Of a stretch of DNA of 64,000 bases, positions 2,179 through 39,869 are shown piece after piece. Every line of letters starts with the position of its first letter. Positions within the stretch are counted from its first letter, which is position 1. The position numbers and the translations under genes were made by a program. The stretch comes from Ceratodon purpureus (taxonomy: Eukaryota > Streptophyta > Bryopsida > Pseudoditrichales > Ditrichaceae), in assembly GCA_014871385.1 (NCBI GenBank), contig CM026427.1:12958430-13022429 (forward strand), in the 5' to 3' direction. The notes below the pieces were generated by a model. It was not told the origin of the DNA and made no database searches. It was given only the letters and a program-made list of their open reading frames with translations.

Positions 2179-2185
2179 TATTTAA
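2179..2185 (+). promoter_or_regulatory. TATA-like box upstream of gene B (element O)
   Basis: TATTTAA lies 79 bp before the gene B ATG at 2264. The same heptamer sits 79 bp before gene B of element I (26313-26319, minus). A related TATTTAA precedes gene C in both elements. Confidence 0.4.
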
Positions 2186-2263
2186 GATAAGAGTAGGGAA
2201 TGTCTCTGCCTCTTTTGTATTGGTTTTATGTGAAGCTCTTTTCCGTAGTGCGGGACAGCACCT

Positions 2264-2716: not shown

Positions 2717-2970
2717 GACATCTAATAACAAGTATATGTTTGCCTTAATAAATGGTACATGTCAGGGGATACGAGGTATATAGTGCACTTCTTCAAGATA
2801 CAATGTATTGAAATAGAATGCAATCAATGTGAACGCCAAAGCCTTTAATATAATGAAAAAGTCAATACAGCTTCTATATTGCTGACTTAGTACATGGGAT
2901 ATTACTAAAATCATTCACTACGTGACAAATGGCCATTGTGGAAATGGAAGTTCTAAAGTAGGAGGGCTAC

Positions 2971-5900: not shown

Positions 5901-6034
5901 GTCTTGGTCCACAAGTGTCCGTCGTATCGTTTGTCCATTCCCTGCATAGACTTGGCGGCGAGCTTAGAGGAACCTGAAGCAGCTGGGGGCAACTCAAAAA
6001 GAACCGGACCATCAAACTTCGCAGGCAAGTACTC
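2971..6034 (-). pseudogene. Gene A of element O, 3' part: MULE transposase split by element I
   Basis: This is the C-terminal three quarters of the transposase, read on the minus strand from the insertion junction at 6034. Exon 1 ends at 4571 before a GT donor; exon 2 runs 4464-2971. It holds the Cys/His-rich segment, the DDE-type catalytic region (DATYC, then FMADNAQAN, then CLFHW) and a C-terminal SWIM zinc finger (CTCP...YCKH). No frameshift or stop was found. The only lesion is the 21.6-kb insertion, which separates it from residues 1-205, encoded at 27672-28286. The break falls in the codons for EYLPAKF, and GAGTACTTGC is duplicated on both sides. The pre-insertion gene was probably intact. 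A product could start only from an internal ATG. Confidence 0.85.
6025..6034. repeat. Target-site duplication of element I, left copy
   Basis: GCAAGTACTC is repeated exactly at 27662-27671. In the uninterrupted gene A of element I the site occurs once, around 22465-22474 (as GAGTACTTGC), which confirms the duplication arose on insertion. Confidence 0.9.
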
Positions 6035-6110
6035 GGGGAAAGTTCGTACGTGAGCGGAGAGCGTAGAGCGGAGAGCGGTGAGCGCAGAATGGAGAGCACA
6101 GAATTGACAA
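6035..6110 (+). repeat. Left TIR of element I (D side)
   Basis: GGGGAAAGTTCGTACGTGAG followed by GAGCGTAGAGCGGAGAGCG-type iterations. It matches the inverted right end of O at 39880-39942 with few differences, and the opposite end of I at 27590-27661. Confidence 0.88.
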
Positions 6111-6136
6111 TTAGGAAAATTTTCAAAAGCAAAGTA

Positions 6137-6153
6137 GACCCTATAACCGTGGA
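6137..6153 (+). promoter_or_regulatory. Subterminal motif of I, left
   Basis: GACCCTATAACCGTGGA, about 100 bp inside the end, identical to the sites near 1472, 27454 (inverted) and 39824 (inverted). Bases 6154-6804 hold no gene I can support. Confidence 0.6.
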
Positions 6154-6804
6154 GAATTACTAAATTAAGGCTTAATTTTGACACTTTTTTTAGAAAAAGA
6201 GTATATTACCGTGGAATTTAGGGTTATCTCTGGTAAGAATTTATTACGTTTGTTCTCTAAGATACAAATTAGGGCTGATGTCATGATGACGTCATGCATA
6301 CATTCCTTTAGATTTGTCATGGGTGTAGGCAAGCTACAATGATCAGGCGTTGAGTTTTAGATCAAACAATTAATTCTTTCATAGGATTATGTAAATGCAC
6401 AAGGAAAGAAACAAATTTCACAGAACATAAAGGAGGCAAGGTTTGAAAACTTCCTGGAATATTTCAAAATTCGTGTATAATATCTTGACTGCTGAAACCA
6501 AGATATACCTTGTCAGAGTCCTTGTCTTCATCGAAGATTACTCTCTCTTCCTAGGCAGCGAAGCATCTGAATTTGAGTGATACAAGTAGGAGATTTTCAG
6601 CATGAAACAACACTTGGTAAGCTGGGTTCCAGAGAAGGAGGTCACTCTTGGTTTCGTGAGCTTGTCTCTAGGTGGCGTATTAGGATAGTCATACAGTCCT
6701 TGGCAGTCTGTGCTATATGCGAAGGTAGCGATGGAGTTCGGGGGGGTCAATCTGTAGGCTTGCGTGGAACGTTTTAAGACTACAACAATTTAGTGTGTTG
6801 CGCG

Positions 6805-7176
6805 ATGCCGAAGGTGTGTAATGCTAGATCCAGGAGGACGAGAGCGGCTGTAGGTTTGCCCCCAAAGGCACCGGCGAGTTATGAGGAGCTGCGGCCGTGG
6901 CTGTTGGAGGTGGAGCGCGCCAGGGAACGAGGCATGGACCTGCCACCGTTTAGGCACATCGGAAGCCTCCATGTTGGTGAAGGTGAATGGCGTTGGACAG
7001 TGCTTTGTACGAATGAGCTTCTCCGTATTATGGAGTTGTCCCTAATCCCGTATCCCTTGCTATCGAACGTCGATGAGAATCCAGTTGTTCAGCTGCCCGA
7101 AGTGATCATATCGGATGGCGAAACTTGCTGGTTTGATATGGACAAGAGTTGGACTGTATATCCTTCGAAGGATTAG
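6805..7176 (+). CDS. Gene D of element I: conserved 123-residue protein, unknown
   Basis: A single-exon frame from ATG 6805 to TAG. I do not recognise the family. Features visible: a basic N-terminus (MPKVCNARSRRTRAAVG), a KAPASYEELRPWL segment that may form a helix, and the invariant C-terminal block PEVIISDGETCWFD. The ATG is chosen because all three copies align from it and have exactly the same length. The copy in O differs at 4 of 123 residues and the copy in T at about 27. That is far less than genes A or C differ between T and I. It is convergent with gene C, whose stop is 514 bp downstream, and faces away from the nearer TIR. Conservation suggests the product matters to the element. 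A small binding or regulatory protein is possible, but no function can be assigned. Confidence 0.8.
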   Translation: MPKVCNARSRRTRAAVGLPPKAPASYEELRPWLLEVERARERGMDLPPFRHIGSLHVGEGEWRWTVLCTNELLRIMELSLIPYPLLSNVDENPVVQLPEVIISDGETCWFDMDKSWTVYPSKD

Positions 7177-7690
7177 TACTGTGAAGTCTAGTGGGGTGTT
7201 TGAATACATTCCTTTAGATTTGGTCCCTTATCGGATCTACATACGAGTATTCCAGCACGATGGTTTTAGATAATATAGACGATTCTAGGAATAAGACAAC
7301 TCGAAACCAACTAAAAGAAATGGTCTTAGAAGTTCGTAGAATATTTCAGAGTTCGTGTAGAATAATGGAGTACCAGAAACCAAGATGTACACCAAGTCAA
7401 GAATAGATAACATGCCTATGGAAATATGGGATTTTGAATGAGTAAAATATAATTAACAGCACAATATTATATTTGAGCCTTTCTTTTGTAACATTTGATT
7501 CTTCATATTATATTTTGAGCATTACAGTTGTGACATTTCATCCTTTACAAACACGGAGACAAAATGGAAATGAGAATCATAACAAGTTTAGGTTTAGGGT
7601 AGTAGAGTAGACGAAGGATTACCCAAAGAACTCCAATTAAATCAAATCAAAGCAAATGAAAACAATGAAAGACCGAAGCCTCCTTCAAAC

Positions 7691-10600
7691 TCAGAAAATG
7701 CTACCATCGCTACTTCCACTCTCAGAACTAGATGACTCTGAATCTCCTTCTACCGCCTCATCATCGACGAATAGAAGGGCCCTGGGATCAAAAGTAGTTG
7801 GCCGACTTGGAACATATGTCAGGGCTCCAGATTGAAACGCCTGTGCTAAGCCCTCTGCGTAATCCGGAAGTATGAAAGGCTGAATCGGGCTGGAATGAAG
7901 ACGCCACGATGGAGTGGACACTGCTCTTGGCCCACGTGGCGGTGTTGCTGAAACTACTCTGCAATAGAGAACCGACTGTGGTTAGATAGAGTACGTAAAG
8001 CTAGAAAGAGAAGTAATGATTGGATAATATGAACAAAAAATGAAAGACTTACACCACTTGGAAGGTCTTGCTCTCTTAGGAGGCGCTTCGCCTGCTGCTG
8101 CCGGCCTTGGATGTTTAGGAGGACCCATGGCTGATGGTTTGAGAAGGGCGTTGAATATGGCTTCGTCCTCCTCAAAAGCGAGAATGTGACGACCAACAGC
8201 CTGGGCGGCCTTGATGGAGGCCCCTGAAACTCGAAGAGAAACAAAGAAATGAGAAACTCTGGAAAAAACGAGAGGAAAAATGAAGCAGAGATATGTAAGA
8301 AGAGTTACCTGTCCCAGCATTCCAGTCAACAACTATGTCGCCGGGCTTGGACAGCTCCTCAATGATGCTCTGCATCATCTCAGGGGATTTCTCCCTTGGG
8401 CCTCTCCACGGCACCTCCCCATTCATGAGCTGAGATTCCGCATCGGTGAAGTTGAAAATGGCATCACTCTTGGTAATGTTGAGGAGCCCATGTATCAAGT
8501 CTTCCTTCTTCGTCTGGAAGGAGAAAGTACTGCCACTACGAACGTAGACGCGAATCCAGAATCGCATAGTCTGCAGTCAAGCACAAGTAGTGAGAAAAAG
8601 AAGCGGAAGGGTTATTAGTAAGCGAAGAGAAGGGCATGTTTAGGAAAAGTACCAAGTTCTCGGGGTTCGTAGGAGAAGTCAGGCCGAGGACATTGACACC
8701 CCACCAGTCCTTGAACAGCACGTATCCACCAGCAGCAGCTTCTTCCTCGATATCCTTAGCCAGCTTCTGATCAGTGTTGTAGATGAGGCAGAGGGCACCA
8801 TCTTTCTGCAGGAAATCATCTGCAAAATGGAAGATGTCGTACAAATAATCCCTGTAGCGAGAGTTCCAAGGCGGAATACTCGTGGGAGGAACGGAAACGG
8901 ATGGGACGGGAAGATTCTCAGGAATGTCGGCAATGATCAAGTCGACTCCCAGATGGTTCTCTTCTTTGCACCGGTCCGGAACTTCGTTTTCGCGGCCTGC
9001 TCCAAACTTGAGCAAACAAGAAAGGAGAGTTAGTAACTACATAGTGAGTAGAGGTGGCAGAATCCATTAAATGTCGAAATATACGAACAAACCTTGCGAA
9101 TAAAGTCTTGAGTCTTGATCCAATCCGGGTCGCCACCTTTGCTCTCCAGTCTCCTATTTTGCCGTAACAAGGAATCCACGGATGAGTTGAAGACGGAAAC
9201 ATGTGTGGAAATCGAAGCTCCAGCGGAAGAAGTTGGTTGAGGATATAGTTTGGCCTTCCTCTGCTCAATGAGACTTCGCGTGACTGCAGAAGCACCAATG
9301 GATGAAGGCGCATTCGCTGTGTTCGACGTTGGCATTGGGACGTCTACAGTTGGAGAAGCGTTGCCCGTCTCCTTCCCTGGTGAGGAAGACTCAGCCCCAG
9401 TATCTTGTGAGGTCTGTGACTTCGAACCCAGTGTTCGCAGTCGCCGAGCTCTCCCTTTCTTCGGTTGAGGTGCAGATGATTGACTTTGATGTTCTTCGTC
9501 TTCTTCAGAACCGTCGTTGGAGTCTTCGACTACTGGCGCTCGAAGATCAAGTGATGATTTCACATCGGCCTCAGAATCGACTGTAAAACCACGGAGGCAA
9601 TCTAGATACCAACATCCTGCCTCCAAGTGGGGAGCTTTGTACCTCTTCAATTGCTGAGCAGAGTAGATACACTCGTCCGTGCCTCTCTGGATCCATAAAG
9701 GAAAGTACTTCGGGAGTTGGTGGACAGTGACGGCTCCTTTGGGAAGAAGCTCTCTCTTGAAGTACCTAATGTGGGCCAATTTTAAAATACTTAGTATGTG
9801 GGAGAGACGAAACGCAGGATTCGAAATGCACACATGTTTGAGAAAAGATTCATACCGGTAAATGACTCGCTTGACAACATCTACCGTTCCAGGGAATTTC
9901 GTGAAAATCGACTTCTTATCAAAAGTCTTCTTCGCCTTGGATCCAAGGAATGCCGGAAATGCTCTGTCCCAAAGCAGAATACGCCAGCTCTCCACGTAAT
10001 CGCCTGGTCGCTGAACATCAGGGGAGGCATTCCAATTGATGTCCAGCTCCTCAGACTTACACATGTTCTCGAACTCTTGGATGACCGCTTCTTCCAACTA
10101 CAAGAGACAGTCAGGAGAATTAGACTACAACTATCAAAGTGATACAATGACAAAGACATTATCAGTTTTGGAAATAAGGGAGCATACCCCTGCCCAGAAT
10201 GTAGCCCTGTTTAGCCAACGGTCGAGGTCAGCTTCCTTGAACTCAGGTGGTGGGAACCTGTAAGACTGCCTTGAAGTCGGAGAGGAGTTCCACCACCTCA
10301 ACCAACGAGCTTTGTACTTGGGTTCCACTGCCGCCGGCACAATCTTCTGCAGCTTGTCCAATGTCATCTCAGGTTTGTTGAGATCGCTGAAGTGGCGGTT
10401 AATCTGCATTTAGAACACAACTGTTAGCATTATGAAATGAAGATATCATAGGAGATAAGAACAAAATAGCTTAAGATGAAGTGATTAAGGATTCACCTCG
10501 GCAAGGAAGTCGTCACCATTTTTGGGATTCGCAATGGCCAAGTACTTGGTGAAGTCTTTCTTCTTGACGGCCTCAATGTAGTTGTTTGACGCTGTCGTCA

Positions 10601-13600
10601 TCGCATCCCACACTCCAGATCCAGATTGATCGTCTATTGGCGTGTTCTCCTTGTAGGCTCTTGCGGCCTGATCCGAGGCGACTGCAATCTCTCTCTGTAC
10701 ATGGATATACATTATATTAAAATCAATGTACAAACCACTTGAAATGCATTACTTAAAGTATATGGATCAGACGAATGTACTTGCTGAGTCATGGTATAAA
10801 TTCTTACTCGGTATAGGAACGCAATGAAAACCTTTGTTGTCAAGGTGAACCATCGGTCCTTTGCGTGTTTATTCTGCACACAGATTTCAAACTCTTCGGG
10901 GCTTAGAAGATCTTTGAATTCTTCTAACTTCATGACACCGAAAGAGCGGATGCGGAATAACTTCGCTGGAAGATTACTCTTCACATGGTCATTCTCAGTA
11001 GACCTGTGGACAAAATAAATAGTTTAGAAAACACATCATAATAGAAGGATGATCCGAAATCAAAATTGAAAAAATGTTCCACCAAAATTCTTACCAGTTG
11101 ATGTCGTGCATGGCATGGAGAAGATTGCCCACTTGGCCGCGGGGGTCCAATATGATGCAATGCACGGAGATGTGCCAAGCTGGGTCGTCGGCATGATGCT
11201 TGTTGATGTGCCGTAACCAAGCTGAAAGGCGATGGTTACCTTCCCATACAAAAAACATTTTGCCACTGAATTGATTGAGGTCATCGTCTAAACCTAGGTC
11301 GGCTTCGAAGGCTTCGTTAGCCCTACGCCAGCACGGGCTCCACTTTGCCTTCACTTCCTCCGTGACATCCATTGACACCTCTTCAGTGTTGAACATGGAA
11401 ATGTACATCACGCGGTCCCCATCTCTGTAGCCCTTCACGAACTCCCTCTCCAGATGTTGCACGCCCATTTCGCCAACCGGTCTGACTTTTGCCATTGCGA
11501 CCATTCTACACAATGGGACCAGCAGGCGAGACTTCCTCAAGGGCTGAATACGAACGGCATTGATGACGTTGATGGAGTCAACTTTATGCTGTGTTCGATG
11601 AAGCAGTTCCCCTTCTACAGCGTCTTTCAAGTCCAAAGGCTTTGATGATGATGGCAACACGTCCTGTGTTTGCGTCAACTCGGGTACCTGCCGTAAGCAA
11701 TGGAAATGAACAATCAAACACAATAATGTAGATACTGAGAAATGGAATTTACCAATCACATAGAGCTTTTCTCATAAATGAAAGAGTAAAAAAAAACATC
11801 TCAAATTTCATCTATAGCACCAAGAATCAAGGCCGTGCCACTCTACGAGGAGCTCTTCCATAGTACTGTCTAGCCTCTCTACTATTCCAATGATGGCGCC
11901 TCCTCCAAAATCGCCTGGTCTGACGGCAAGCGCTGGGCAGTATTGCCGGAAGGGCAAACACTACATGGGCTGGCCTCCTCAACACCAAAGGTGAAACTGG
12001 GGGATTAGGCGAAGACGGCGGTGTGCCAAGACGTGGCGAGGAGGGCATGTACACTGGAGAGGTGGGCATGTACACAGGAGAGGTGGGCTCAAATACAGGC
12101 GAAGTAGGCATGTACTGGGGTGACTGGACCTCGAAAGGTCCAGTGTCTACACCCAAAGGAATGGCTAAATCACAGGTACAAAGACGCTCATCCTCTGGGT
12201 CTGACAGGTCTGAAAGGTTTATGACAGAGATTGGAGAATTGACAGACATGTCGGGAGCATCAGAGCCTACCTGCAAGTAAAAGGCAAATGAGGAAATATG
12301 AGCTTTCTAATCATTTGAAAGATCTTTCAAATTCTCAACTTCAATTATTTAGGATAATAGAACATGTGAATTTCAAAAATGAAAACATCAGAAACAATAC
12401 CTCAGTCTCCTCAGGCCCCTTGCTTTCACTCTCGGTCCCGTTGTTCTGCTGAGAAGTATCCTGTAATTCACAAAAAAGGCACTAATGTCAATGATTAGAA
12501 TTGTTCTCAACCCTGTAGATAGGTTCTCATCTATATGCACAAATGATCACACATATATACAAGCACGAAATGGAAATAAAAAAAAAATGTGAGCCGCAAG
12601 CCTCATGGGAGGCTCATAGCCTCCTCAGCCGCGGCTCTTCAATCCAAATGCAGAGCACATACAACAAGCAGTAAGCCCCAAGCTTCCTCGGAGGCATAGA
12701 GCCTCCTCGGCCGGGGCTCAGTTAGAGGGCTCGCAGCACTGGTGTCTGCTCCGAAAGCAGGCACCAGGCTGCTTGCCACGAAATGGAAATAAAAAAAAAT
12801 GTGAGCCGCAAGCCTCATGGGAGGCTCATAGCCTCCTCAGCCGCGGCTCTTCAATCCAAATGCAGAGCACATACAACAAGCAGTAAGCCCCAAGCCTCCT
12901 CGGAGGCATAGAGCCTCCTCGGCCGGGGCTCAGTTAGAGGGCTCGCAGCACTGGTGTCTGCTCCGAAAGCAGGCACCAGGCTGCTTGCCACGAAATGGAA
13001 ATAAAAAAAAAATGTGAGCCGCAAGCCTCATGGGAGGCTCATAGCCTCCTCAGCCGCGGCTCTTCAATCCAAATGCAGAGCACATACAACAAGCAGTAAG
13101 CCCCAAGCCTCCTCGGAGGCATAGAGCCTCCTCGGCCGGGGCTCAGTTAGAGGGCTCGCAGCACTGGTGTCTGCTCCGAATGCAGGCACCAGGCTGCTTG
13201 CCACGAAATGGAAATAAAAAAAAAATGTGAGCCGCAAGCCTCATGGGAGGCTCCTAGCCTCCTCAGCCGCGGCTCTTCAATCCAAATGCAGAGCACATAC
13301 AACAAGCAGTAAGCCCCAAGCTTCCTCGGAGGCATAGAGCCTCCTCGGCCGGGGCTCAGTTAGAGGGCTCGCAGCACTGGTGTCTGCTCCGAAAGCAGGC
13401 ACCAGGCTGCTTGCCACGAAATGGAAATAAAAAAAAAATGTGAGCCGCAAGCCTCATGGGAGGCTCATAGCCTCCTCAGCCGCGGCTCTTCAATCCAAAT
13501 GCAGAGCACATACAACAAGCAGTAAGCCCCAAGCTTCCTCGGAGGCATAGAGCCTCCTCGGCCGGGGCTCAGTTAGAGGGCTCGCAGCACTGGTGTCTGC

Positions 13601-16600
13601 TCCGAAAGCAGGCACCAGGCTGCTTGCCACGAAATGGAAATAAAAAAAAAATGTGAGCCGCAAGCCTCATGGGAGGCTCATAGCCTCCTCAGCCGCGGCT
13701 CTTCAATCCAAATGCAGAGCACATACAACAAGCAGTAAGCCCCAAGCTTCCTCGGAGGCATAGAGCCTCCTCGGCCGGGGCTCAGTTAGAGGGCTCGCAG
13801 CACTGGTGTCTGCTCCGAAAGCAGGCACCAGGCTGCTTGCCACGAAATGGAAATAAAAAAAAAATGTGAGCCGCAAGCCTCATGGGAGGCTCATAGCCTC
13901 CTCAGCCGCGGCTCTTCAATCCAAATGCAGAGCACATACAACAAGCAGTAAGCCCAAAGCCTCCTCGGAGGCATAGAGCCTCCTCGGCCGGGGCTCAGTT
14001 AGAGGGCTCGCAGCACTGGTGTCTGCTCCGAAAGCAGGCACCAGGCTGCTTGCCACGAAATGGAAATAAAAAAAAAATGTGAGCCGCAAGCCTCATGGGA
14101 GGCTCATAGCCTCCTCAGCCGCGGCTCTTCAATCCAAATGCAGAGCACATACAACAAGCAGTAAGCCCCAAGCTTCCTCGGAGGCATAGAGCCTCCTCGG
14201 CCGGGGCTCAGTTAGAGGGCTCGCAGCACTGGTGTCTGCTCCGAAAGCAGGCACCAGGCTGCTTGCCACGAAATGGAAATAAAAAAAAAATGTGAGCCGC
14301 AAGCCTCATGGGAGGCTCATAGCCTCCTCAGCCGCGGCTCTTCAATCCAAATGCAGAGCACATACAACAAGCAGTAAGCCCAAAGCCTCCTCGGAGGCAT
14401 AGAGCCTCCTCGGCCGGGGCTCAGTTAGAGGGCTCGCAGCACTGGTGTCTGCTCCGAATGCAGGCACCAGGCTGCTTGCCACGAAATGGAAATAAAAAAA
14501 AAATGTGAGCCGCAAGCCTCATGGGAGGCTCATAGCCTCCTCAGCCGCGGCTCTTCAATCCAAATGCAGAGCACATACAACAAGCAGTAAGCCCCAAGCT
14601 TCCTCGGAGGCATAGAGCCTCCTCGGCCGGGGCTCAGTTAGAGGGCTCGCAGCACTGGTGTCTGCTCCGAAAGCAGGCACCAGGCTGCTTGCCACGAAAT
14701 GGAAATAAAAAAAAAATAAGAGCCGCAAGCCTCATGGGAGGCTCATAGCCTCCTCAGCCGCGGCTCTTCAATCCAAATGCAGAGCACATACAACAAGCAG
14801 TAAGCCCCAAGCCTCCTCGGAGGCATAGAGCCTCCTCGGCCGGGGCTCAGTTAGAGGGCTCGCAGCACTGGTGTCTGCTCCGAATGCAGGCACCAGGCTG
14901 CTTGCCACGAAATGGAAATAAAAAAAAAATGTGAGCCGCAAGCCTCATGGGAGGCTCCTAGCCTCCTCAGCCGCGGCTCTTCAATCCAAATGCAGAGCAC
15001 ATACAACAAGCAGTAAGCCCCAAGCTTCCTCGGAGGCATAGAGCCTCCTCGGCCGGGGCTCAGTTAGAGGGCTCGCAGCACTGGTGTCTGCTCCGAAAGC
15101 AGGCACCAGGCTGCTTGCCACGAAATGGAAATAAAAAAAAAATGTGAGCCGCAAGCCTCATGGGAGGCTCATAGCCTCCTCAGCCGCGGCTCTTCAATCC
15201 AAATGCAGAGCACATACAACAAGCAGTAAGCCCCAAGCCTCCTCGGAGGCATAGAGCCTCCTCGGCCGGGGCTCAGTTAGAGGGCTCGCAGCACTGGTGT
15301 CTGCTCCGAATGCAGGCACCAGGCTGCTTGCCACGAAATGGAAATAAAAAAAAAATGTGAGCCGCAAGCCTCATGGGAGGCTCCTAGCCTCCTCAGCCGC
15401 GGCTCTTCAATCCAAATGCAGAGCACATACAACAAGCAGTAAGCCCCAAGCTTCCTCGGAGGCATAGAGCCTCCTCGGCCGGGGCTCAGTTAGAGGGCTC
15501 GCAGCACTGGTGTCTGCTCCGAAAGCAGGCACCAGGCTGCTTGCCACGAAATGGAAATAAAAAAAAAATGTGAGCCGCAAGCCTCATGGGAGGCTCATAG
15601 CCTCCTCAGCCGCGGCTCTTCAATCCAAATGCAGAGCACATACAACAAGCAGTAAGCCCCAAGCCTCCTCGGAGGCATAGAGCCTCCTCGGCCGGGGCTC
15701 AGTTAGAGGGCTCGCAGCACTGGTGTCTGCTCCGAATGCAGGCACCAGGCTGCTTGCCACGAAATGGAAATAAAAAAAAAATGTGAGCCGCAAGCCTCAT
15801 GGGAGGCTCCTAGCCTCCTCAGCCGCGGCTCTTCAATCCAAATGCAGAGCACATACAACAAGCAGTAAGCCCCAAGCTTCCTCGGAGGCATAGAGCCTCC
15901 TCGGCCGGGGCTCAGTTAGAGGGCTCGCAGCACTGGTGTCTGCTCCGAAAGCAGGCACCAGGCTGCTTGCCACGAAATGGAAATAAAAAAAAATGTGAGC
16001 CGCAAGCCTCATGGGAGGCTCATAGCCTCCTCAGCCGCGGCTCTTCAATCCAAATGCAGAGCACATACAACAAGCAGTAAGCCCCAAGCCTCCTCGGAGG
16101 CATAGAGCCTCCTCGGCCGGGGCTCAGTTAGAGGGCTCGCAGCACTGGTGTCTGCTCCGAAAGCAGGCACCAGGCTGCTTGCCACGAAATGGAAATAAAA
16201 AAAAAATGTGAGCCGCAAGCCTCATGGGAGGCTCATAGCCTCCTCAGCCGCGGCTCTTCAATCCAAATGCAGAGCACATACAACAAGCAGTAAGCCCCAA
16301 GCCTCCTCGGAGGCATAGAGCCTCCTCGGCCGGGGCTCAGTTAGAGGGCTCGCAGCACTGGTGTCTGCTCCGAATGCAGGCACCAGGCTGCTTGCCACGA
16401 AATGGAAATAAAAAAAAAATGTGAGCCGCAAGCCTCATGGGAGGCTCCTAGCCTCCTCAGCCGCGGCTCTTCAATCCAAATGCAGAGCACATACAACAAG
16501 CAGTAAGCCCCAAGCTTCCTCGGAGGCATAGAGCCTCCTCGGCCGGGGCTCAGTTAGAGGGCTCGCAGCACTGGTGTCTGCTCCGAAAGCAGGCACCAGG

Positions 16601-19600
16601 CTGCTTGCCACGAAATGGAAATAAAAAAAAAATGTGAGCCGCAAGCCTCATGGGAGGCTCATAGCCTCCTCAGCCGCGGCTCTTCAATCCAAATGCAGAG
16701 CACATACAACAAGCAGTAAGCCCCAAGCTTCCTCGGAGGCATAGAGCCTCCTCGGCCGGGGCTCAGTTAGAGGGCTCGCAGCACTGGTGTCTGCTCCGAA
16801 AGCAGGCACCAGGCTGCTTGCCACGAAATGGAAATAAAAAAAAAATGTGAGCCGCAAGCCTCATGGGAGGCTCATAGCCTCCTCAGCCGCGGCTCTTCAA
16901 TCCAAATGCAGAGCACATACAACAAGCAGTAAGCCCCAAGCTTCCTCGGAGGCATAGAGCCTCCTCGGCCGGGGCTCAGTTAGAGGGCTCGCAGCACTGG
17001 TGTCTGCTCCGAAAGCAGGCACCAGGCTGCTTGCCACGAAATGGAAATAAAAAAAAAATGTGAGCCGCAAGCCTCATGGGAGGCTCATAGCCTCCTCAGC
17101 CGCGGCTCTTCAATCCAAATGCAGAGCACATACAACAAGCAGTAAGCCCAAAGCCTCCTCGGAGGCATAGAGCCTCCTCGGCCGGGGCTCAGTTAGAGGG
17201 CTCGCAGCACTGGTGTCTGCTCCGAAAGCAGGCACCAGGCTGCTTGCCACGAAATGGAAATAAAAAAAAAATGTGAGCCGCAAGCCTCATGGGAGGCTCA
17301 TAGCCTCCTCAGCCGCGGCTCTTCAATCCAAATGCAGAGCACATACAACAAGCAGTAAGCCCCAAGCTTCCTCGGAGGCATAGAGCCTCCTCGGCCGGGG
17401 CTCAGTTAGAGGGCTCGCAGCACTGGTGTCTGCTCCGAAAGCAGGCACCAGGCTGCTTGCCACGAAATGGAAATAAAAAAAAAATGTGAGCCGCAAGCCT
17501 CATGGGAGGCTCATAGCCTCCTCAGCCGCGGCTCTTCAATCCAAATGCAGAGCACATACAACAAGCAGTAAGCCCAAAGCCTCCTCGGAGGCATAGAGCC
17601 TCCTCGGCCGGGGCTCAGTTAGAGGGCTCGCAGCACTGGTGTCTGCTCCGAATGCAGGCACCAGGCTGCTTGCCACGAAATGGAAATAAAAAAAAAATGT
17701 GAGCCGCAAGCCTCATGGGAGGCTCATAGCCTCCTCAGCCGCGGCTCTTCAATCCAAATGCAGAGCACATACAACAAGCAGTAAGCCCCAAGCTTCCTCG
17801 GAGGCATAGAGCCTCCTCGGCCGGGGCTCAGTTAGAGGGCTCGCAGCACTGGTGTCTGCTCCGAAAGCAGGCACCAGGCTGCTTGCCACGAAATGGAAAT
17901 AAAAAAAAAATAAGAGCCGCAAGCCTCATGGGAGGCTCATAGCCTCCTCAGCCGCGGCTCTTCAATCCAAATGCAGAGCACATACAACAAGCAGTAAGCC
18001 CCAAGCCTCCTCGGAGGCATAGAGCCTCCTCGGCCGGGGCTCAGTTAGAGGGCTCGCAGCACTGGTGTCTGCTCCGAATGCAGGCACCAGGCTGCTTGCC
18101 ACGAAATGGAAATAAAAAAAAAATGTGAGCCGCAAGCCTCATGGGAGGCTCCTAGCCTCCTCAGCCGCGGCTCTTCAATCCAAATGCAGAGCACATACAA
18201 CAAGCAGTAAGCCCCAAGCTTCCTCGGAGGCATAGAGCCTCCTCGGCCGGGGCTCAGTTAGAGGGCTCGCAGCACTGGTGTCTGCTCCGAAAGCAGGCAC
18301 CAGGCTGCTTGCCACGAAATGGAAATAAAAAAAAAATGTGAGCCGCAAGCCTCATGGGAGGCTCATAGCCTCCTCAGCCGCGGCTCTTCAATCCAAATGC
18401 AGAGCACATACAACAAGCAGTAAGCCCCAAGCCTCCTCGGAGGCATAGAGCCTCCTCGGCCGGGGCTCAGTTAGAGGGCTCGCAGCACTGGTGTCTGCTC
18501 CGAATGCAGGCACCAGGCTGCTTGCCACGAAATGGAAATAAAAAAAAATGTGAGCCGCAAGCCTCATGGGAGGCTCCTAGCCTCCTCAGCCGCGGCTCTT
18601 CAATCCAAATGCAGAGCACATACAACAAGCAGTAAGCCCCAAGCTTCCTCGGAGGCATAGAGCCTCCTCGGCCGGGGCTCAGTTAGAGGGCTCGCAGCAC
18701 TGGTGTCTGCTCCGAAAGCAGGCACCAGGCTGCTTGCCACGAAATGGAAATAAAAAAAAAATGTGAGCCGCAAGCCTCATGGGAGGCTCATAGCCTCCTC
18801 AGCCGCGGCTCTTCAATCCAAATGCAGAGCACATACAACAAGCAGTAAGCCCCAAGCCTCCTCGGAGGCATAGAGCCTCCTCGGCCGGGGCTCAGTTAGA
18901 GGGCTCGCAGCACTGGTGTCTGCTCCGAATGCAGGCACCAGGCTGCTTGCCACGAAATGGAAATAAAAAAAAAATGTGAGCCGCAAGCCTCATGGGAGGC
19001 TCCTAGCCTCCTCAGCCGCGGCTCTTCAATCCAAATGCAGAGCACATACAACAAGCAGTAAGCCCCAAGCTTCCTCGGAGGCATAGAGCCTCCTCGGCCG
19101 GGGCTCAGTTAGAGGGCTCGCAGCACTGGTGTCTGCTCCGAAAGCAGGCACCAGGCTGCTTGCCACGAAATGGAAATAAAAAAAAATGTGAGCCGCAAGC
19201 CTCATGGGAGGCTCATAGCCTCCTCAGCCGCGGCTCTTCAATCCAAATGCAGAGCACATACAACAAGCAGTAAGCCCCAAGCCTCCTCGGAGGCATAGAG
19301 CCTCCTCGGCCGGGGCTCAGTTAGAGGGCTCGCAGCACTGGTGTCTGCTCCGAATGCAGGCACCAGGCTGCTTGCCACGAAATGGAAATAAAAAAAAAAT
19401 GTGAGCCGCAAGCCTCATGGGAGGCTCCTAGCCTCCTCAGCCGCGGCTCTTCAATCCAAATGCAGAGCACATACAACAAGCAGTAAGCCCCAAGCTTCCT
19501 CGGAGGCATAGAGCCTCCTCGGCCGGGGCTCAGTTAGAGGGCTCGCAGCACTGGTGTCTGCTCCGAAAGCAGGCACCAGGCTGCTTGCCACGAAATGGAA

Positions 19601-21212
19601 ATAAAAAAAAAATGTGAGCCGCAAGCCTCATGGGAGGCTCATAGCCTCCTCAGCCGCGGCTCTTCAATCCAAATGCAGAGCACATACAACAAGCAGTAAG
19701 CCCCAAGCCTCCTCGGAGGCATAGAGCCTCCTCGGCCGGGGCTCAGTTAGAGGGCTCGCAGCACTGGTGTCTGCTCCGAATGCAGGCACCAGGCTGCTTG
19801 CCACGAAATGGAAATAAAAAAAAAATGTGAGCCGCAAGCCTCATGGGAGGCTCCTAGCCTCCTCAGCCGCGGCTCTTCAATCCAAATGCAGAGCACATAC
19901 AACAAGCAGTAAGCCCCAAGCTTCCCGAACAAGCAGATACCCGCAAGCCCACTACCCACAAACATGATAATCCCAAAACCCACCCAACCGAACTGCGACT
20001 CCTCGAATTCTCGCAATCCACAATCCCCCAACACACAATTTCTCAAGCACCCGCACTCCCCGAGCTTCCAATGCGAGATTCCAATCAACATCAGCAGGAA
20101 CCCATAACCCTCATTAACCCCACGTCCCCGTCAACCCCATCGAACAGTACCCATCAAGCATACAATTGCAAAGTACCGACACCCATAGAATCTGACCTCG
20201 TCGTGCTCGTCTTCAGAGTCGAGCTCGTCGTCGTGGTCGCCCTCGATTTGGTGCTCGTGCTGCACTCCGGGCTGCTGCTGGAGCTCCACGCCTCCATCGA
20301 GCTCCAAGCCTCCATCGACCTCCACCCCTCCAGCGACCTGCACATCATCCCCCTGGCCGCGGCCGCCCACATTCTGCTCTCCCTGCGCAGCCATTGCACT
20401 CCCTCCCTCGCCTGCGTCGAGAATGCCCAGCCTTGCTCGCCTCGCCTCGAGTCGGAGGTGCTCAAACTCCGTGCATTCTCCAAGAGCGGAGCCACCACAT
20501 TGATCCTCGACCCCTCTCATCCTCTCGATGCTCTGTATAAAAATAGCAGACAAATAAATCTACGATTCCCCTGTGTAAAGTGCCGCGGCCCTCTCCCTGA
20601 GACTTAGTATTCGAGTGTGAAAATTGCCGCGGCCCCTCTCAAATAGACTTAGAGCGAACCTCACATTCTTTATTCAAACTACTCAATTACAAACCTTTCA
20701 CAAATATACTAGATTACACAAATAATTCCCATTACCTTGGTTCTAGAGAGAATATAAATACTTACCTTGTCGGGGTTTAAATAAAAATCTGATTGAGAAT
20801 CAGCCTCCCCTGTCGAGAACTCATTGAATGAAAACGATGGTTGCGGAGACTCTAGTTTCTGACTACAGTTGAAGACTAATTCTTCCGTCATGGCCTCACG
20901 TGCTCCTCTACTTAAATGTACAACCTGTTCGTGGTCGTGATTCTGGACGTCCTTGTCCTCTAATAATTCCTCTTTCTCCTCTTCTATTGAGTCGAGAATG
21001 AGTTTGCGAAGGCTACAAAACTTCAAAGCTACAGGCAGATCTCCTCCTCTCCGTTTCACGGGTGCACTCAAATGGTCACTTTTAGAATCTACCTGCTTAC
21101 GTGATGCTCTCCTCTTTCTAGCTCTTCTATTTGTAAAATCAGTGCGGCCAGGTTTCCTTCTCTGTTTAGGAGTAACATAAGTGGAGGGAGATGGCCCTCC
21201 ACTCTGCTTCAT
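7691..21212 (-). CDS. Gene C of element I: ParB-like / N4-N6 DNA methyltransferase fusion
   Basis: The model has 14 exons on the minus strand: 21212-20766, 20532-20197, 12460-12401, 12270-11965 (or to a stop at 11827), 11687-11095, 11003-10808, 10694-10497, 10403-10188, 10097-9856, 9765-9093, 9006-8653, 8570-8309, 8223-8053, 7956-7691. All junctions are GT-AG and keep frame. The N-terminal region is basic, then acidic, then has YxPTSPV heptads. Next is a ParB/Srx-like domain with the signature EGNHRLSAW (exon 11687-11095). The C-terminus resembles beta-class amino-methyltransferases in order. VDLIIADIPE stands where DPPY-type motif IV would be, then [12 protein letters not shown], then KPGDIVVDWNAGTG as the SAM-binding motif I, and [10 protein letters not shown]. 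Such fusions are familiar in phage and bacteria. In a plant transposon the role is inferred: DNA modification or binding, in the nucleus. Intron 2 is 7.7 kb of tandem repeat. The exon 4 to 5 join is uncertain. Confidence 0.78.
12585..19925. repeat. Tandem array, about 34 units of 213 bp, inside intron 2 of gene C (I)
   Basis: Near-identical 213-bp units fill the intron. Each holds three stem-loops. One is GAGCCGC...GCGGCTC enclosing a GCCTC/GAGGC hairpin. One is AGCCCC...GGGGCT enclosing GCCTCCTCGGAGGC. The third is CTGGTGTCTGC, loop TCCGAAA, GCAGGCACCAG. An A-tract of 8-10 bases separates units. On the gene C sense strand the third hairpin carries GAGCAGAC, the core shared with the arrays of O and T. 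Unit variants recur about 3.19 kb apart (AATAAGAGCC at about 14715 and 17910; GCCCAAAGCC at about 13951, 14380, 17148 and 17571), showing a 15-unit block duplication. The 62-residue frames through it are repeat artefacts. Confidence 0.95.
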
Positions 21213-21848
21213 GTGTCTAACCAAGGGAAGGACTCTCTCACAAAAAGACTTTCATGAAAACTTCTCCCTGCTTAAATACCTCTCACGTACAACTATTCTC
21301 CTAGAACCCTAAGTTGATATACAATCTCAACAACTGACACAGTGTCTGCCCACTTTATATTAAGAATATATTTAACAATTCTATAATTGAAGCTAGATTT
21401 AAAATATCAACCTTTAATTATAAGGAATATATCTAAGTGCACTATAAATTGAAAGATTTGAATCTAGCACTTCAATCATGCTCCTTTTTATATTCATTGT
21501 ATTAAATGTAGAATTAAAATGACGGCTCATTCTAATCTTATAATACATCATGTCAAATAGAATCCGCTCTACGATTCAAATTTTAAAGTAGAGTTCAATA
21601 GACCTTACCTCATATACTTAAACCTGCAAAAAGTGGCACTGTAATTAGTTAGCGCCGCCTCTCTTAAATCATACATTCGTTACCTAACTGACAGAATCAT
21701 TCCCCAACTATTCACATGGACATTCCAACCTGAATAAGATGATCATCAACGATGCATCATTCCTCTCACTTTGCTCTCGCGATAGCGCTTGGCTGATACA
21801 CTCACTCTCCTCCCTTCTTCCACTAGTATCACTGAGTTGCCTGCGAAC
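21213..21848. promoter_or_regulatory. Divergent promoter region between genes C and A (I)
   Basis: The 636-bp spacer separates the ATGs of C (minus) and A (plus). A TATTTAA box lies at 21272-21278 on the minus strand, about 60 bp before the gene C ATG, and is conserved in O (29111-29117). No clear TATA was picked for gene A. The region is AT-rich. Confidence 0.5.
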
Positions 21849-24800
21849 ATGGGGATGGTCTGTCTGTACGCCCAAGGCATGGGCATCCCTCTTAGGTTTC
21901 GCGTAGATGACGATGGTCTAGCTACGGTGTCCTCTCTTCGCCTCAGTCTCAGATTCCATTTCCGTGAGGATTCCATCAGTATAGAGGAGGAGATCTTTGA
22001 TGACGTTACTGCCGAGGTTACCCACACCCTCGGGCAACCATCAGTGAGAGATGAGAACAACATACTGCAGTGGAGACTCCTCCCTGGATCCTACAGAGTC
22101 TATGGTCTTACTGATTCTCTGATGGCTGCATCCACTGAGATCCTCACCCCCCGTCGCTCTTCTACTTGCACAATTCAGACTCCCTTACCTCGTGATGTCA
22201 AAGTCAAAGTCGAGCCTGGTACCGAGACTTCAGATGTAGAGAAACCTCCTCCGACCGTCATATCTCTCTCTTCTGATGACGAAGTCAGTCCCGTCAAGTT
22301 GGTGCCTAAGGTCCACGCAGATGCTCCTCCTTCCAATGTGTCTCCTCCATTGTCCCAGGTCACAGTTAGCATTGTTCCGCTCCTTCAAGAGATTGCTAAG
22401 ACGCGTGGGTCCAAAAACATTTTGAAGAAGATAGACTATTCCACTATTAGACACGAGAGAGTAGAGTACTTGCCTGCGAAGTTTGATGGTCCGGTTCTTT
22501 TTGAGTTGCCCCCAGCTGCTGCAGGATCCTCTAAGCTCGCCGCCAAGTCAATGCAGGGAATGGACAAACGATACGACGGACACTTGTGGACCAAGACCAT
22601 CACAACAAACATCAAAAACGACTTCGGACTCTCTTTTCGAAGTTCCACCTGCGTCGGATGGCTGCGTTGCAGCAACCCGGAGTGTGACTTCCTGAAGCGT
22701 GTTCCCAAGATCTTCGAGGTTAACGAGACTGAGTTCGAAGGCTGTACCCTGCAAGCTTTTCTCATGGATCAGCCTCCTCCATCTGACTCCACGCTAGTGT
22801 GCAAGGTATGTAAAGAACCTCCATCATGTGTAGCTACATGCGAGGCTAAGATTTATTATGTTGTGGGCAAACCAAATCAGACTAGAGCTTGTATTCACAT
22901 AGGAACACATGATCATCCAGTGAAAGTTGGAGACTACAGAGACTCTAAAGCAGAGATTAGTAGCTTAATAGAAGAGCAGGTAGAGATGAACAACAAAGCA
23001 ACAAAGAGCGCCGTTGTCCTGGAGGCGAGCAAACTCCTCATCGGCAGCTACCTTCTACAGCCCGAGGATGCACCACCGAGGAAACTGACGATGGAGGAGC
23101 TGGTTCCTGTTCTGGATCGATGCAAAGATATGGCGTCGCCGAACATCCGCAACAAAGTCGCCACCTTCAAAAGATTCAAAAGGTACGGAATCATGGACGG
23201 TATCACCAAGCTCCGTGGAAACAGTCTGTGGGCGTATGTCCAGGAGAATAGGTTTCCTGGTCAGGGATCGATGCGTGACAAAGTCTTCCTCTTCAAGATG
23301 TCGGAGGTTGGGCCGGGAAGTGGTGTCGACTTGGTCAGCCGAATGCAAGCTGGTGGCGACTTGGAGAACGCATGGATCATGTTCGACCATGTAAAACGCG
23401 TCAAAGACTGGTCGACCATGGCGTGCCATGTGTACGACGCCACGTACTGCCGCGTGATGACAATCGCCACTTGCGACATGCAGTCTGAGGACACGGACGC
23501 CCAGCTCGTCTTCTGGAAAAACCTGAACCTGGTCATGGAGATCAATGGCGTTGCAGCGCCGAACTTCAAGGGGTTCATGGCGGATAACGCACAGGCCAAT
23601 TGGAATGCAGTGCGAATCCTTTACGGCAATGGCAACAAAGAGGACCCAATGGAGGACCGGGAGAGGTCGTGCTTGTTCCACTGGACTCAGAACATGGTGG
23701 CGTATACACAGAAGCACTTCCCCGAAGAACTCTGGGAACAGCACAAGAAGATGTGCACTCAGTACAAGAATGCGACCAGCATGGCAGAGGCGGAAACTCT
23801 GTACCACGCGTTGCGAGCATGGTGGGCATCCACCGGGGTCGTTGGCGAAAGCGGGCTCATCAAACTCGATCAGTGGCTGTCATTCTGGCACCACCGCTTC
23901 CGCCAATGGGGGGGATTCATGACCGAGGTATTATCTCTGAACTCTGTTTTGATGTTTTTCATACCGGTTTCCTAGCCCTAACCTACAAAACTCTAATCCG
24001 TGAATCTAATGGCACCTACTGTCAAAATTGCAGAAATTCACGGAAGAAGAACTCACAGAGATGCCCACCTGTAACCTCGCCGAAACAGTTCACAACAAGT
24101 GGCTCCAGGCTTCTGGAAACAACGGGAACGACCTCTACGTTGCTACCGTGGACGATTTCGTTCGGGCTTTTCTTCAAGTTGTTAACTACTACCAATTCCT
24201 CAAAGGTGACGTCGGCGGAACAGGACCGTCCAAGAAGGAACTCAGACTCCGGATGGCTGAACGCAACGCCAAGAAATGGGGAAATCCTACACTGCTCGAT
24301 AAGCCCATGCTCGATATGCCAGGCGCGGATGAGTTCTGCACCCGTCAGCCTATCATGCCAGGAGCGGAAGTCTTCGGTTCACAGAAGCGAAAAGCCGACG
24401 TCCCCATCGGAGCTGACGAGGAGTCTCATCGCCCGGACAAGACAAACTTCTCACGCCCAAGAGGCCCAAGACGTGCCGTCAGGGCTCGCCCTATGCAGAT
24501 GCCCGTCATTGTGGAAGACGACTCCGAACACGACACCGAGGTACAATGTGCGCAACCTCCTGCCCAGGAAGTTGATTCCCCTTTACCTTCACCTGTGAAC
24601 AAGGGCGGCATTCGCCATGTCAACGCGGTTGAAGAAACCAAGGTGGACGTGAAGGAGTGGCACATTTCAAGACTTCACAAACTTTCTGCGAAGTGCTGCT
24701 GGGCCCAGAGAGCTGAAACGAAGAAGAAGTGCACTGAGAGAATTGTGAGGGGGCCCCTTTGCACAGCTGCACCGACCTACACTGGGCTGTGGACTAACTA

Positions 24801-25527
24801 TCGCAGGAACACTGTTGAGAAGACAGAGTTCTTCTTCTGCTCCGACGATATTGAGCGCTGCGTGAAAGGCTCTAAGCGCAAGTGGGTAGCGCACTACTCA
24901 AAGGACCAGGAATTCCCCTCCATTCCAGAGGTCTGGCCAGTGAAACTAGGTACTAACCTAAAACTGACTGAGATTCTTGCCCTCGAAGCAGCAGGCTTTC
25001 AACTTCCGCCTAAAAAGCCGGTCTCCCCAAGACGCCTCTTCTCCTCTGCCCCGCCCCCTGCGAATCTCAACTCGGTGCCAGTCCCTGCAGACGCTGACCG
25101 CTACCCAGGCAAGAGAGATGGCAAGATGGTGAAGCGCACTGCCACTCGTCCCAATCCGGCGCAGCGACTATCCATGGGCTCCTCCGAGTCTCTCAAAGCG
25201 CGCCTCCGTTCCGTCACCATGATACCTGAGCCGGGCCACGGTTGCATCATTGGGCTGGATTCGGGCGTCGCTCCTCACATCACACGTTACCAGATTACCA
25301 TCAGTTCTTACCCTGGTTGCACTTGCCCAGCATTCAAGAAGACGATGACTACGTTCAAAGGCAGGACTCAGTTCACGTATTGTAAGCACCTTTACTACAT
25401 ACTCTTGAAGGTCTGCAACCGTGATCCCGAAGCCGAGCTTTTCATCCATGCGCCTACCTTTAGCTTCAACGAGGTCAAGCTTCTCCTAGAGAGTGGAATC
25501 TTGCGTCACCCCTTGGCGAAGAAGTAG
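21849..25527 (+). CDS. Gene A of element I: MULE transposase with SWIM zinc finger
   Basis: Two exons, 21849-23927 and 24034-25527, joined at GAG|GTATTA and TTGCAG|AAA, give about 1,190 residues. The first ATG in frame (MGMVCLYAQGMG) is chosen because the diverged copy in T aligns from a matching ATG. An N-terminal beta-rich region (1-80) precedes a Ser/acidic linker. Next comes a Cys/His segment with WLRCSNPECDF and GTHDHP, reminiscent of WRKY/GCM or FLYWCH fingers (about 245-365). The MULE catalytic region has Asp 530 (DATYC), Asp 579 (FMADNAQ), the CxxH pattern CLFH (608-611), and a candidate Glu near 647 in AEAET. The SWIM finger is CTC (1122-1124) then CKH (1143-1145). It would cut and join the TIRs in the nucleus. 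It is the only complete transposase in the window and could also mobilise O. Catalytic Glu assignment is tentative. Confidence 0.88.
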
Positions 25528-25781
25528 GTAGCCCTCCTACTTTAGAACTGCCATTTCCACAATGGCCATTTGTCACGTAGTGAATGATTTTAGTAATATA
25601 CCATGTACTAAGTCAGCTATTCAGAAGCTGTATTGACTTTTTCATTATATTAAAGGCTTTGTCGTTCACATTGATTGCATTCTATTTCAATACATTCTAT
25701 CTTGAAGAAGTGCACTATATACCTCGTATCCTCTGACATGTACCCTTTATTACAGCAAACATATACTTGTCATTAGATGTC

Positions 25782-26234
25782 CTAATCTTCGAACCTAACA
25801 CGTTTAGGGTTGCCCACTACACTATCAGCAGGATTGCGAACCTCTGACTGTACTACAGGACAAACTACATTCGCATTCACTTTCGTTCCCACACTTGGAG
25901 CGTGTCCTTGGTATGATCGTTTCAGCAATGGCCCACCTCCCCGCCTCCGATTCACTGATTCCCTGGAATAGGTTCCCCTTGGGATCTTTCCAACCTTGGA
26001 GTATGCATGAGGTTGCAAAGGCACATCTGCGTCCTCCTCCAGCACTCTGATATCATCCGAATTTTCTGAACGTGGAGGGTCAGCTCTTACATCCTGTTGC
26101 ACGTCAACATCCGTTGTCAAAGGACGCCCTTGGCTGTTGGCCATCACCTCTTCTTCGTCCTCCACCTCAACATATGGTTGAAATGGACAAACATCGTCAG
26201 CAAGTGAAACAACAATATCTCTGACGTCTTCCAT
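25782..26234 (-). CDS. Gene B of element I: small nuclear-type protein, unknown
   Basis: An intact 150-residue single-exon frame, convergent with gene A and 254 bp from its stop. It begins MEDVRDIVVSLADDVC and ends KRVRFED. It shares the HAYSKVGKIPRGTYSR core with the O copy and, in looser form, with T. Differences from O are mostly in the acidic middle and near the C-terminus. A TATA-like TATTTAA lies 79 bp upstream on the minus strand (26313-26319). Family and function are not recognised. Its place beside the terminus and its basic C-terminal half fit a nuclear accessory factor of the transposon, which is inference only. Confidence 0.75.
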   Translation of the reverse strand: MEDVRDIVVSLADDVCPFQPYVEVEDEEEVMANSQGRPLTTDVDVQQDVRADPPRSENSDDIRVLEEDADVPLQPHAYSKVGKIPRGTYSRESVNRRRGGGPLLKRSYQGHAPSVGTKVNANVVCPVVQSEVRNPADSVVGNPKRVRFED

Positions 26235-26579
26235 AACTGCTGTCCCGCAGTACGGAAAAGAGCTTCACAAAACACCAACAGAAAAGAGGAAGAGACATTC
26301 CATAATCCTAACTTAAATATCCGTGAAGGAGATGCTTGGCGCCCTTGAATTTCGGCTATTCATTCATTTGAAAGTTGTCATCGTCCTCAACTGAATGGAA
26401 AAGGATGAGGGTTGAGCAGAAGTCATTTAGCATTTAAAATTTAAATGTAATAAAATAAAAGAAAAAAAATATTAATAAAAGCAAAAAGAAGAAAAAAAAA
26501 AAAAACCTTTATAAAAAATGAAATTAAGAAAATAAAAGTAAAAAAAGCAAAAATAAATATTAAGGTTGAAAATAATATG

Positions 26580-27140
26580 AAGGCGACTAAGAAAATGAAA
26601 GAGAAAATAAAATGAAAGAGAAAATAAAATGAAAGAGAAAATAAAACGAAAGAGAAAAGAAAATGAAAGAGAGAATAAAATGAAAAGGAGAATAAAATGA
26701 AAGAGAGAATAAAATGAAAGAGAAAATAAAATGAAAGAGAAAATAAAATGAAAGAGAAAATAAAATGAAAGAGAAAATAAAATGAAAGAGAAAATAAAAT
26801 GAAAGAGAAAATAAAATGAAAGAGAGAATAAAATGAAAGAGACAATAAAATGAAAGAGAAAATAAAATGAAAGAGAAAATAAAATGAAAGAGAGAATAAA
26901 ATGAAAGAGAAAATAAAAGGAAAGAGAAAATAAAATGAAAGAGAAAATAAAATGAAAGAGAGAATAAAATGAAAGAGAAAATAAAATGAAAGAGAAAATA
27001 AAATGAAAGAGAAAATAAAATGAAAGAGAGAATAAAATGAAAGAGAAAATAAAAGGAAAGAGAAAATAAAATGAAAGAGAAAATAAAATGAAAGAGAAAA
27101 TAAAATGAAAGAGAAAAGAAAATGAAAGAGAATTAAAGGA
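26580..27140. repeat. Purine-rich 17-bp tandem repeat near the B-side end of I
   Basis: About 33 copies of GAAAGAGAAAATAAAAT (plus strand) between gene B and the TIR. The long Ser/Phe/Leu frames on the minus strand are a product of this repeat. Element O has only a few degenerate copies at the matching site (1860-1930), so the array expanded in I. Bases 27141-27590 are AT-rich with no gene. Confidence 0.9.
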
Positions 27141-27453
27141 AAGGAAAGATAGATAGAGTAATGGAAGTGAATATGAAGAATAAAAGAAATAAACCATGTA
27201 GACCATGGCGGATGATTTCTAACAATGTTAAGAAAATGTTACGATATTAAATGTTACTTTATCCTTCTTAAGAGCTTTAATACCAATACATTTTATGCGG
27301 TAATTTGCATATAAATTTGAGGAGATAAGGGGAATTAATGTATGCCTAAACTAGTTAGAAGGAGCTGGAGCATAGTAATTGGTGCACGTTAAAAAATTAT
27401 CATAAAAAAAAAGAGAAAACGAACTACAAATTCAATGAAAACACTGTAATTAT

Positions 27454-27470
27454 TCCACGGTTATAGGGTC
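27454..27470 (-). promoter_or_regulatory. Subterminal motif of I, right
   Basis: Inverted copy of GACCCTATAACCGTGGA, about 190 bp inside the right end of I. Its distance matches that at the B side of O. Confidence 0.6.
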
Positions 27471-27589
27471 AATAAAATTACTAAAATTAGTATTTTTCCA
27501 AAAATATACTGGGAATATTCGAATCTTCTAATTTTATATTTTATTTTTAGTAAAAAAAGTGCTATTTTTAGGTTCTGTCCCCCACTCTG

Positions 27590-27661
27590 TGCTCTCCGCT
27601 CTCCAAATCTGCGCTCACCGCTCTCCGCTCTACGCTCTCCGCTCACGTACAAGCTACGTCC
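27590..27661 (-). repeat. Right TIR of element I (B side)
   Basis: Inverted copy of the terminal sequence; inward from 27661 it reads GGACGTAGCTTGTACGTGAG and continues into GAGCGGAGAGC iterations. Confidence 0.88.
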
Positions 27662-27671
27662 GCAAGTACTC
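27662..27671. repeat. Target-site duplication of element I, right copy
   Basis: GCAAGTACTC, identical to 6025-6034; gene A of element O resumes directly after it. Confidence 0.9.
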
Positions 27672-39840: not shown

Positions 39841-39869
39841 TACTTTGCTTTTGAAAATTTTCCTAATTT

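Follow-up and report, generated by a model that had tools for sequence, protein, structure and literature searches.

Transposons whose cargo joins a ParB-like domain to an N4/N6 methyltransferase are known from algae. Passages of PMC12477816 describe Sola1-1_Ec32, a 21.5-kb transposon of Ectocarpus encoding a 1104-amino-acid (aa) protein of this type, cite comparable cases from green and red algae, and single these proteins out as an intriguing group whose members may bind and modify the transposon that carries them. Here we analysed a 64,000-nucleotide stretch of the moss Ceratodon purpureus (the window, C7:12958430-13022429 in a 362.5-Mb genome of 151 contigs), in which giant Mutator-like transposons carry such a gene, named gene C. 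A preliminary description had taken this cargo to be undescribed; the protein already printed for the Ectocarpus transposon contradicts this, and both the cargo type and the self-modification idea were known before (passages of PMC12477816). By the architecture described there, the moss element resembles Sola1-1_Ec32 in being a giant DNA transposon with a ParB-like plus N4/N6 methyltransferase protein of ~1,100 aa on the strand opposite to the transposase, and the same self-modification has been proposed for both. It differs in being Mutator-like rather than Sola1, and the host of Sola1-1_Ec32 is a brown alga; section 5 part 1 and the passages of PMC12477816 mention neither a tandem palindrome array nor module exchange. 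In the literature searched, whose coverage mostly excluded subscription journals, we found no ParB-methyltransferase gene in a Mutator-like element (MULE) and no palindrome arrays matched to such a gene. Relative to that literature, three points are new: a carrier that is Mutator-like, the exchange of modules, and palindrome arrays that match the gene. Sola1 transposons produce target-site duplications (TSDs) of 4 bp, whereas those found here measure 10 bp, so that a Sola1 identity was rejected.

Among MULEs, which generate TSDs of 8-11 bp (passages of PMC6446971), the Arabidopsis VANDAL elements encode the anti-silencing protein VANC, and VANC21 targets the motif YAGTATTAY (passages of PMC5735166). 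Unlike the sites described below, this motif is not palindromic; the VANDAL TSD is listed as 9 bp (passages of PMC6446971) versus 10 bp here, and the passages of PMC5735166 mention no ParB or methyltransferase domain. If the working proposed below is true, the moss element would join VANC as the second example of recognition of an element's tandem repeats by a protein that the element itself encodes. Bacterial ParB-parS systems share with it the ParB/Srx fold and clustered palindromic candidate sites; in contrast to them, gene C is eukaryotic, intron-bearing and fused to a methyltransferase-like part, and its candidate sites lie in a transposon array, are longer and mostly contain a spacer. 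The DN4MT proteins of Marchantia are reportedly writers of N4-methylcytosine (4mC), and 4mC is also said to occur in bdelloid rotifers, the enzymes having shown or argued activity. These share with gene C an N6/N4-type methyltransferase domain in a eukaryote, whereas gene C is transposon-borne and has an altered DPPY motif. The moss locus extends a known ParB-methyltransferase architecture to another superfamily of transposons and to a land plant, and its candidate target sites are legible in the sequence itself. We interpret it as belonging to a family of giant, five-gene DNA transposons of the Mutator-like kind, whose most likely working, at a probability of about 0.45, would be self-recognition between gene C and a tandem array.

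Two nested Mutator-like elements

Long inverted matches in a self-comparison of the window resolved a nest in which copy 1 sits within the transposase gene of copy 2. As the preliminary description had stated, copy 1 is bounded by terminal inverted repeats (TIRs) and identical 10-bp target duplications, here placed exactly (Table 1), and contains the transposase (gene A) and genes B, C and D. That description listed four genes and overlooked a fifth, gene E. Copy 2 is flanked by the exact 10-bp TSD TCGCGCACTC at 1271-1280 and 39943-39952. A 43-bp TIR core, allowing up to 3 mismatches, occurred at four places in the window, namely both ends of copy 1 and both of copy 2, and in 0 of 100 shuffles. 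The two copies had been described as near-identical; this stands for most of their length, the two longest stretches matching at 94.2% and 95.7%, but not throughout, because three shorter ones match at just 80-91%. Exact 10-bp TSDs were also present at 9 of 11 further end pairs and at element X (C7:4816388 onward, ~15.7 kb, TSD CTAACCTAGG), within the range of MULEs. The 10-bp TSDs, the TIRs and a weak match of the transposase to the ISCth4 transposase, its best solved-structure match, support the assignment of copies 1 and 2 to Mutator-like elements; the remaining fold-search matches were taken as noise.

The array palindrome tracks the ParB clade

In copies 1 and 2, a large tandem array lies between genes C and B, with one inverted repeat per unit. 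The alpha palindrome of copy 1 is of the type GTGTCTGCT-5-AGCAGACAC, with one mismatch between the arms. We compared arrays in 24 elements, made up of the three copies in the window, element X and 20 further loci. The array repeated a palindrome in 18 of the 24, with one type at most per array, and the palindrome sequence followed the clade of the ParB exon. Specifically, alpha was present in 7/7 alpha-ParB elements, beta in seven beta-ParB elements and in L015 (whose 10 kb showed no ParB), gamma in L019 and delta in X and L016, whose arrays showed no clean one-per-unit pattern. Six elements also have a delta core at position 768; as a solitary site beyond the array, it was omitted from this partition. 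For a held-out check, the sequence upstream of ParB was read at nine further loci. All six with a ParB identity of at least 97% carried alpha, in several spacings and imperfectly in two. Overall, alpha was found in 13 of 13 alpha-ParB elements (six of them held out), in 2/3 borderline ones and in 0/18 others. Two loci with 76% ParB carried the beta palindrome.

The alpha units were of three kinds, of 213 bp (copy 1, L009, L010, L013), 243-244 bp (copy 2, L012) and 202 bp (L011). Those of copy 1, copy 2 and L011 have little in common beyond the palindrome, and L012, with its copy 2-like unit, shares one additional 21-bp stretch with the copy 1 unit. In the beta clade, the L018 unit matched the L020 and L028 units at the palindrome and short stretches only. 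Each unit was shuffled 300 times by moving two-base blocks, and the longest perfect arm was scored. The observed arm was reached in 0/300 shuffles for L011, X, L018 and L020, in 1/300 for copy 2 and in 5/300 for L019, as compared with 19/300 for L014, 40/300 for L026 and 300/300 for copy 3.

ParB, array and gene B behave as an exchanged module

Throughout 12 aligned elements, the TIR plus gene D were 94-99% identical, and the methyltransferase exons 91-100%, except that L018 and L021 matched the rest at 71-73%. ParB and the middle of gene C were only 66-68% identical between copy 1 and eight non-alpha elements, with a sharp identity break near copy 1 offset 3250. In copy 1 versus non-alpha pairs, the synonymous divergence (dS) was 0.02-0.06 in D and 1.4 to saturated in ParB. 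Element X, compared with copy 1 or 2, was 100% identical in D, 98.6% in transposase exon 1, 84% in exon 2 and 89% in E, versus 72% in ParB and 52% in B. It is thus ParB, the array and B that behave as a module exchanged between elements with a shared backbone, the evidence on B and the array coming from a few elements. The backbone comprises the ends, D, often the methyltransferase end, the transposase and E.

Gene C joins a ParB-like exon to a methyltransferase-like end

In copy 1, the ParB-like exon (11687-11095) comes first and the methyltransferase-like exons (9006-8053) lie near the end of gene C; the 5′ start is provisional, with a possible upstream exon at 12306-11830. Both proposed parts were recovered. 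A ParB/Srx fold was found in the first conserved exon, where GNH was invariant and the next R nearly so across 73 aligned exons, a stretch that we take to resemble the ParB GERR motif. The Pfam ParB profile matched neither the gene C exons (E<=1) nor the whole protein (E<=10). On the spliced protein, PF01555 (N6_N4_Mtase) scored 35.9 bits against a curated cutoff of 26.7, covering only profile positions 163-218 of 221, and a PHROG methyltransferase matched with an E of 1.1e-10. The ratio of nonsynonymous to synonymous divergence (dN/dS) between copies 1 and 2 was 0.23, and purifying selection between them acts on the gene as a whole.

No homolog of the whole protein was found at E<=0.001 among 7990 scored candidates, probably because introns split the gene calls. 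The ParB exon alone retrieved 391 relatives, of which 120 were listed and 70 used in alignment A3. The prokaryote genomes searched held no ParB relative, and therefore a bacterial donor was not found; the viral contigs searched held no transposase or ParB relatives.

Proposed working and alternative explanations

Building on the observed anatomy, selection, mosaic structure and association of palindrome and ParB clade, we propose that the ParB domain of gene C may recognise, in a parS-like manner, the palindrome that recurs through the tandem array carried by the same element. Gene C would load at the array and bring its C-terminal domain to the element, where it could mark or protect it against host silencing, or license transposition, analogous to VANC in VANDAL MULEs, which binds motifs within tandem repeats. 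We infer binding, use of cytidine triphosphate (CTP), marking and anti-silencing; binding might serve to mark the element, to counter its silencing as VANC does (passages of PMC5735166), to pair its ends or to control copies. Swapping the ParB-array-B module against the common backbone would change the recognition specificity and leave the mobility machinery unchanged. More tentatively still, the family may possess its own ParB-parS-like self-recognition, with the protein-array cassette exchanged as a unit among elements having transposase and ends in common, to give new specificities, comparable to module swaps in restriction-modification systems. If true, this would show a selfish element changing its address without changing its engine.

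Several observations weigh against self-recognition by gene C. No such palindrome was found in six of the 24 elements (L014, L017, L023, L024, L026 and copy 3). L064, one of the three held-out loci with 89-95% ParB, had no alpha palindrome. The alpha sites of L058, L060 and L065 were imperfect, without an 8-bp perfect arm. The seven first-set alpha elements are not independent, because they comprise only three unit kinds, and the longest arm of the copy 1 unit, an inverted repeat with one mismatch, was reached in 24/300 shuffles. The gamma ParB of L019 is 82-83% alike to beta ParB over the full exon, yet their palindromes differ, while L066 and L067, as far from L018 as gamma is from beta, retain the beta palindrome. 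Since the array lies next to ParB wherever both were read, linkage alone yields part of the association. The palindromes might then be side effects of the array's growth by hairpin-driven amplification, or host-factor sites, following the ParB clade merely as travelling neighbours, which would also suit the six arrays without one. Linkage accounts for array and ParB moving together, but not for a palindrome that is retained as the sequence around it in the unit changes: the alpha palindrome persists across units that vary in sequence and in length (213, 243 and 202 bp; held-out spacings near 199 and 243 bp and of 362 bp), and the beta units named above behave similarly. We consider this by-product explanation improbable, at about one chance in five.

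A further difficulty concerns the catalytic centre. N6/N4 methyltransferases have the catalytic motif (D/N/S)PP(Y/F/W), whereas gene C has no DPPY at motif IV: D(I/V)PE was read in 23 of 24 loci and DILE in one, with DLPE in copy 3. The D(I/V)PE aligns with the DPPY of DpnA and CcrM, though that alignment stretch scores below zero bits. In addition, dN/dS of the motif-IV exon against copy 1 was 0.33-1.08 in eight non-alpha loci (at least 0.54 in six, 0.33-0.34 in two), while ParB gave 0.11-0.13 where computable. Because of the altered motif and these mostly high ratios, the enzyme may be inactive and methylation by gene C is doubtful; the self-modification suggested in the preliminary description is weakened as far as self-methylation is concerned. 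Gene C could instead have lost methyl transfer and serve as a structural transposition factor, its ParB clamp on the array helping to pair or protect the termini of an element 16-22 kb long in a MURB- or segregation-like way. This is unlikely, though the least so of the alternatives, as the region of motif I persists (D/E-W-x-AGTG in the loci read, DCTAATG in copy 3), PF01555 matched above its cutoff and copies 1 and 2 show purifying selection over the whole gene. Gene B shares the exchanged module with ParB and could itself bind the array, gene C acting elsewhere; the co-variation of B with the module in element X (52% against 98.6% in transposase exon 1) and its arginine- and lysine-rich stretches, noted by eye, fit this idea. 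However, B has no Pfam family above the cutoff and was undetected in copy 3, and palindrome binding is classical for ParB proteins, which makes B a distinctly improbable binder. Capture of host fragments is frequent in MULEs (passages of PMC6446971), and gene C might be Pack-MULE-like passenger DNA without a role for the element. This was rejected as very improbable, since gene C exons were present in all 20 loci chosen by the left end and all 5 chosen by gene D, and ParB is under purifying selection over deeply diverged copies.

The family across the genome

All genome counts of ParB, D, transposase and left ends are best matches by score, and therefore say little about decayed copies. With the left end as query, the best 40 of 1563 candidates were listed, and 20 loci were read from among them. 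Methyltransferase exons were present in 20/20, the ParB exon, whole or in part, in 19/20 and gene D in 16/20; L016, L017, L024 and L026 have the shared left end without gene D. Five loci taken from the D list showed the order TIR-D-methyltransferase-ParB in 5/5. The cargo genes adjoin the left TIR in 25/25 loci, in keeping with the preliminary description; these loci were chosen by left end or D, a choice that did not seek out ParB loci lacking a TIR. The ParB exon of copy 2 (best 150 of 1899 candidates) and that of copy 3 (best 150 of 1872) gave lists sharing no entry, which implies at least 300 loci. Among the matches listed, 35 of 150 ParB places lie 4.2-4.5 kb from a D place oriented as expected. 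The best 150 of 1220 candidates for D and the best 90 of 2487 for the transposase were all at least 98% identical, none with a stop. The two end pairs without matching TSDs join L009 and L010 with L034 and L035 (C7:33495-73093), neighbouring and head-to-head, with flanks that match crosswise; such swapped target duplications point to an inversion by recombination between two elements.

Among the matches listed, stop-bearing ParB exons were more frequent on the 110.5-Mb contig C6 than elsewhere (21/71 vs 3/79 with the copy 2 query; 20/42 vs 10/108 with the copy 3 query), as would be expected if C6 is a non-recombining sex chromosome.

Copy 3 and remaining features of the window

The ParB exon of copy 3 is 40% identical to those of the other window copies, which places it in a different clade, and gene C of copies 1 and 3 shows 35% aa identity with saturated dS. 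Copy 3 had been regarded as old, wrongly for its clade, because four further genomic sites carry its ParB exon with 100% identity; this is a second abundant clade. The claim that three copies hold the same four genes is upheld for C and D, but copy 3 yielded no detectable gene B (best E 0.47) and lacks the transposase end. No recognisable right TIR, right end or TSD was located for copy 3. Between copies 1 and 3, dS was 0.43 in D and saturated in E. An open frame of copy 3 at 43005-43517 has weak likeness to gene E (29% over 92 aa), lying upstream of the transposase rather than downstream.

Table 1. Coordinates of the elements and their features in the window.
Feature	Coordinates	Strand	Remarks
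Copy 1, complete Mutator-like element, 21.6 kb	6035..27661	+	exact boundaries, window self-comparison and TSD
Copy 1 left TSD (GCAAGTACTC)	6025..6034	.	exact 10 bp
Copy 1 right TSD (GCAAGTACTC)	27662..27671	.	exact 10 bp
Copy 1 left TIR	6035..6090	+	TIR core search and alignment
Copy 1 right TIR	27606..27661	-	TIR core search and alignment
Gene A, copy 1, Mutator-like transposase	21849..25527	+	two exons, frames open, intron ~23927 to 24034
Gene B, copy 1	20709..21251	-	open frame
Gene C, copy 1, ten GT-AG exons	7691..11687	-	modelled from conservation, in frame
Gene D, copy 1, 123 aa	6805..7176	+	no known family
Gene E, copy 1	25782..26264	-	convergent to transposase
Tandem array, copy 1	12564..19925	.	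213-bp unit, 34.6 units, 34 alpha palindromes
Copy 2, right part	1281..6034	-	right TIR, gene E, most of transposase
Copy 2, left part	27672..39942	-	transposase start, B, array, C, D, left TIR at 39942
Gene B, copy 2	29138-29662	+	
Gene C, copy 2, ten GT-AG exons	34296..38293	+	modelled from conservation, in frame
Gene D, copy 2	38808..39179	-	
Gene E, copy 2	2249-2716	+	
Tandem array, copy 2	31027..33443	.	243-bp unit, 10.0 units, 10 alpha palindromes
Copy 3, element of second clade	about 40190..60240	-	TIR-like left end ~60189-60240 by eye
Gene C, copy 3	48739..55514	+	ten-exon model, frame open
Gene D, copy 3	57594..57965	-	

Of the other genes, A has near its end a SWIM-like CxC...CxH motif (CTC...YCKHLYY, by eye, in the open reading frame 24010-25527) that has no Pfam match, and a KDZ identity found no supporting Pfam match. 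In Pfam, gene B gave a sub-threshold REV match only and gene D no family match above the cutoff. Between copies 1 and 2, dN/dS was 0.19 in D, 0.09 in A exon 2, 0.40 in B and 0.57 in E. GC-rich repeats (gctcgcgcccg, by eye) lie on either side of the copy 2 insertion site, at 1071-1280 and 39953-40055. Outside the elements, positions 1-880 hold an open stretch with protein kinase likeness (HNDISPGN motif, by eye).
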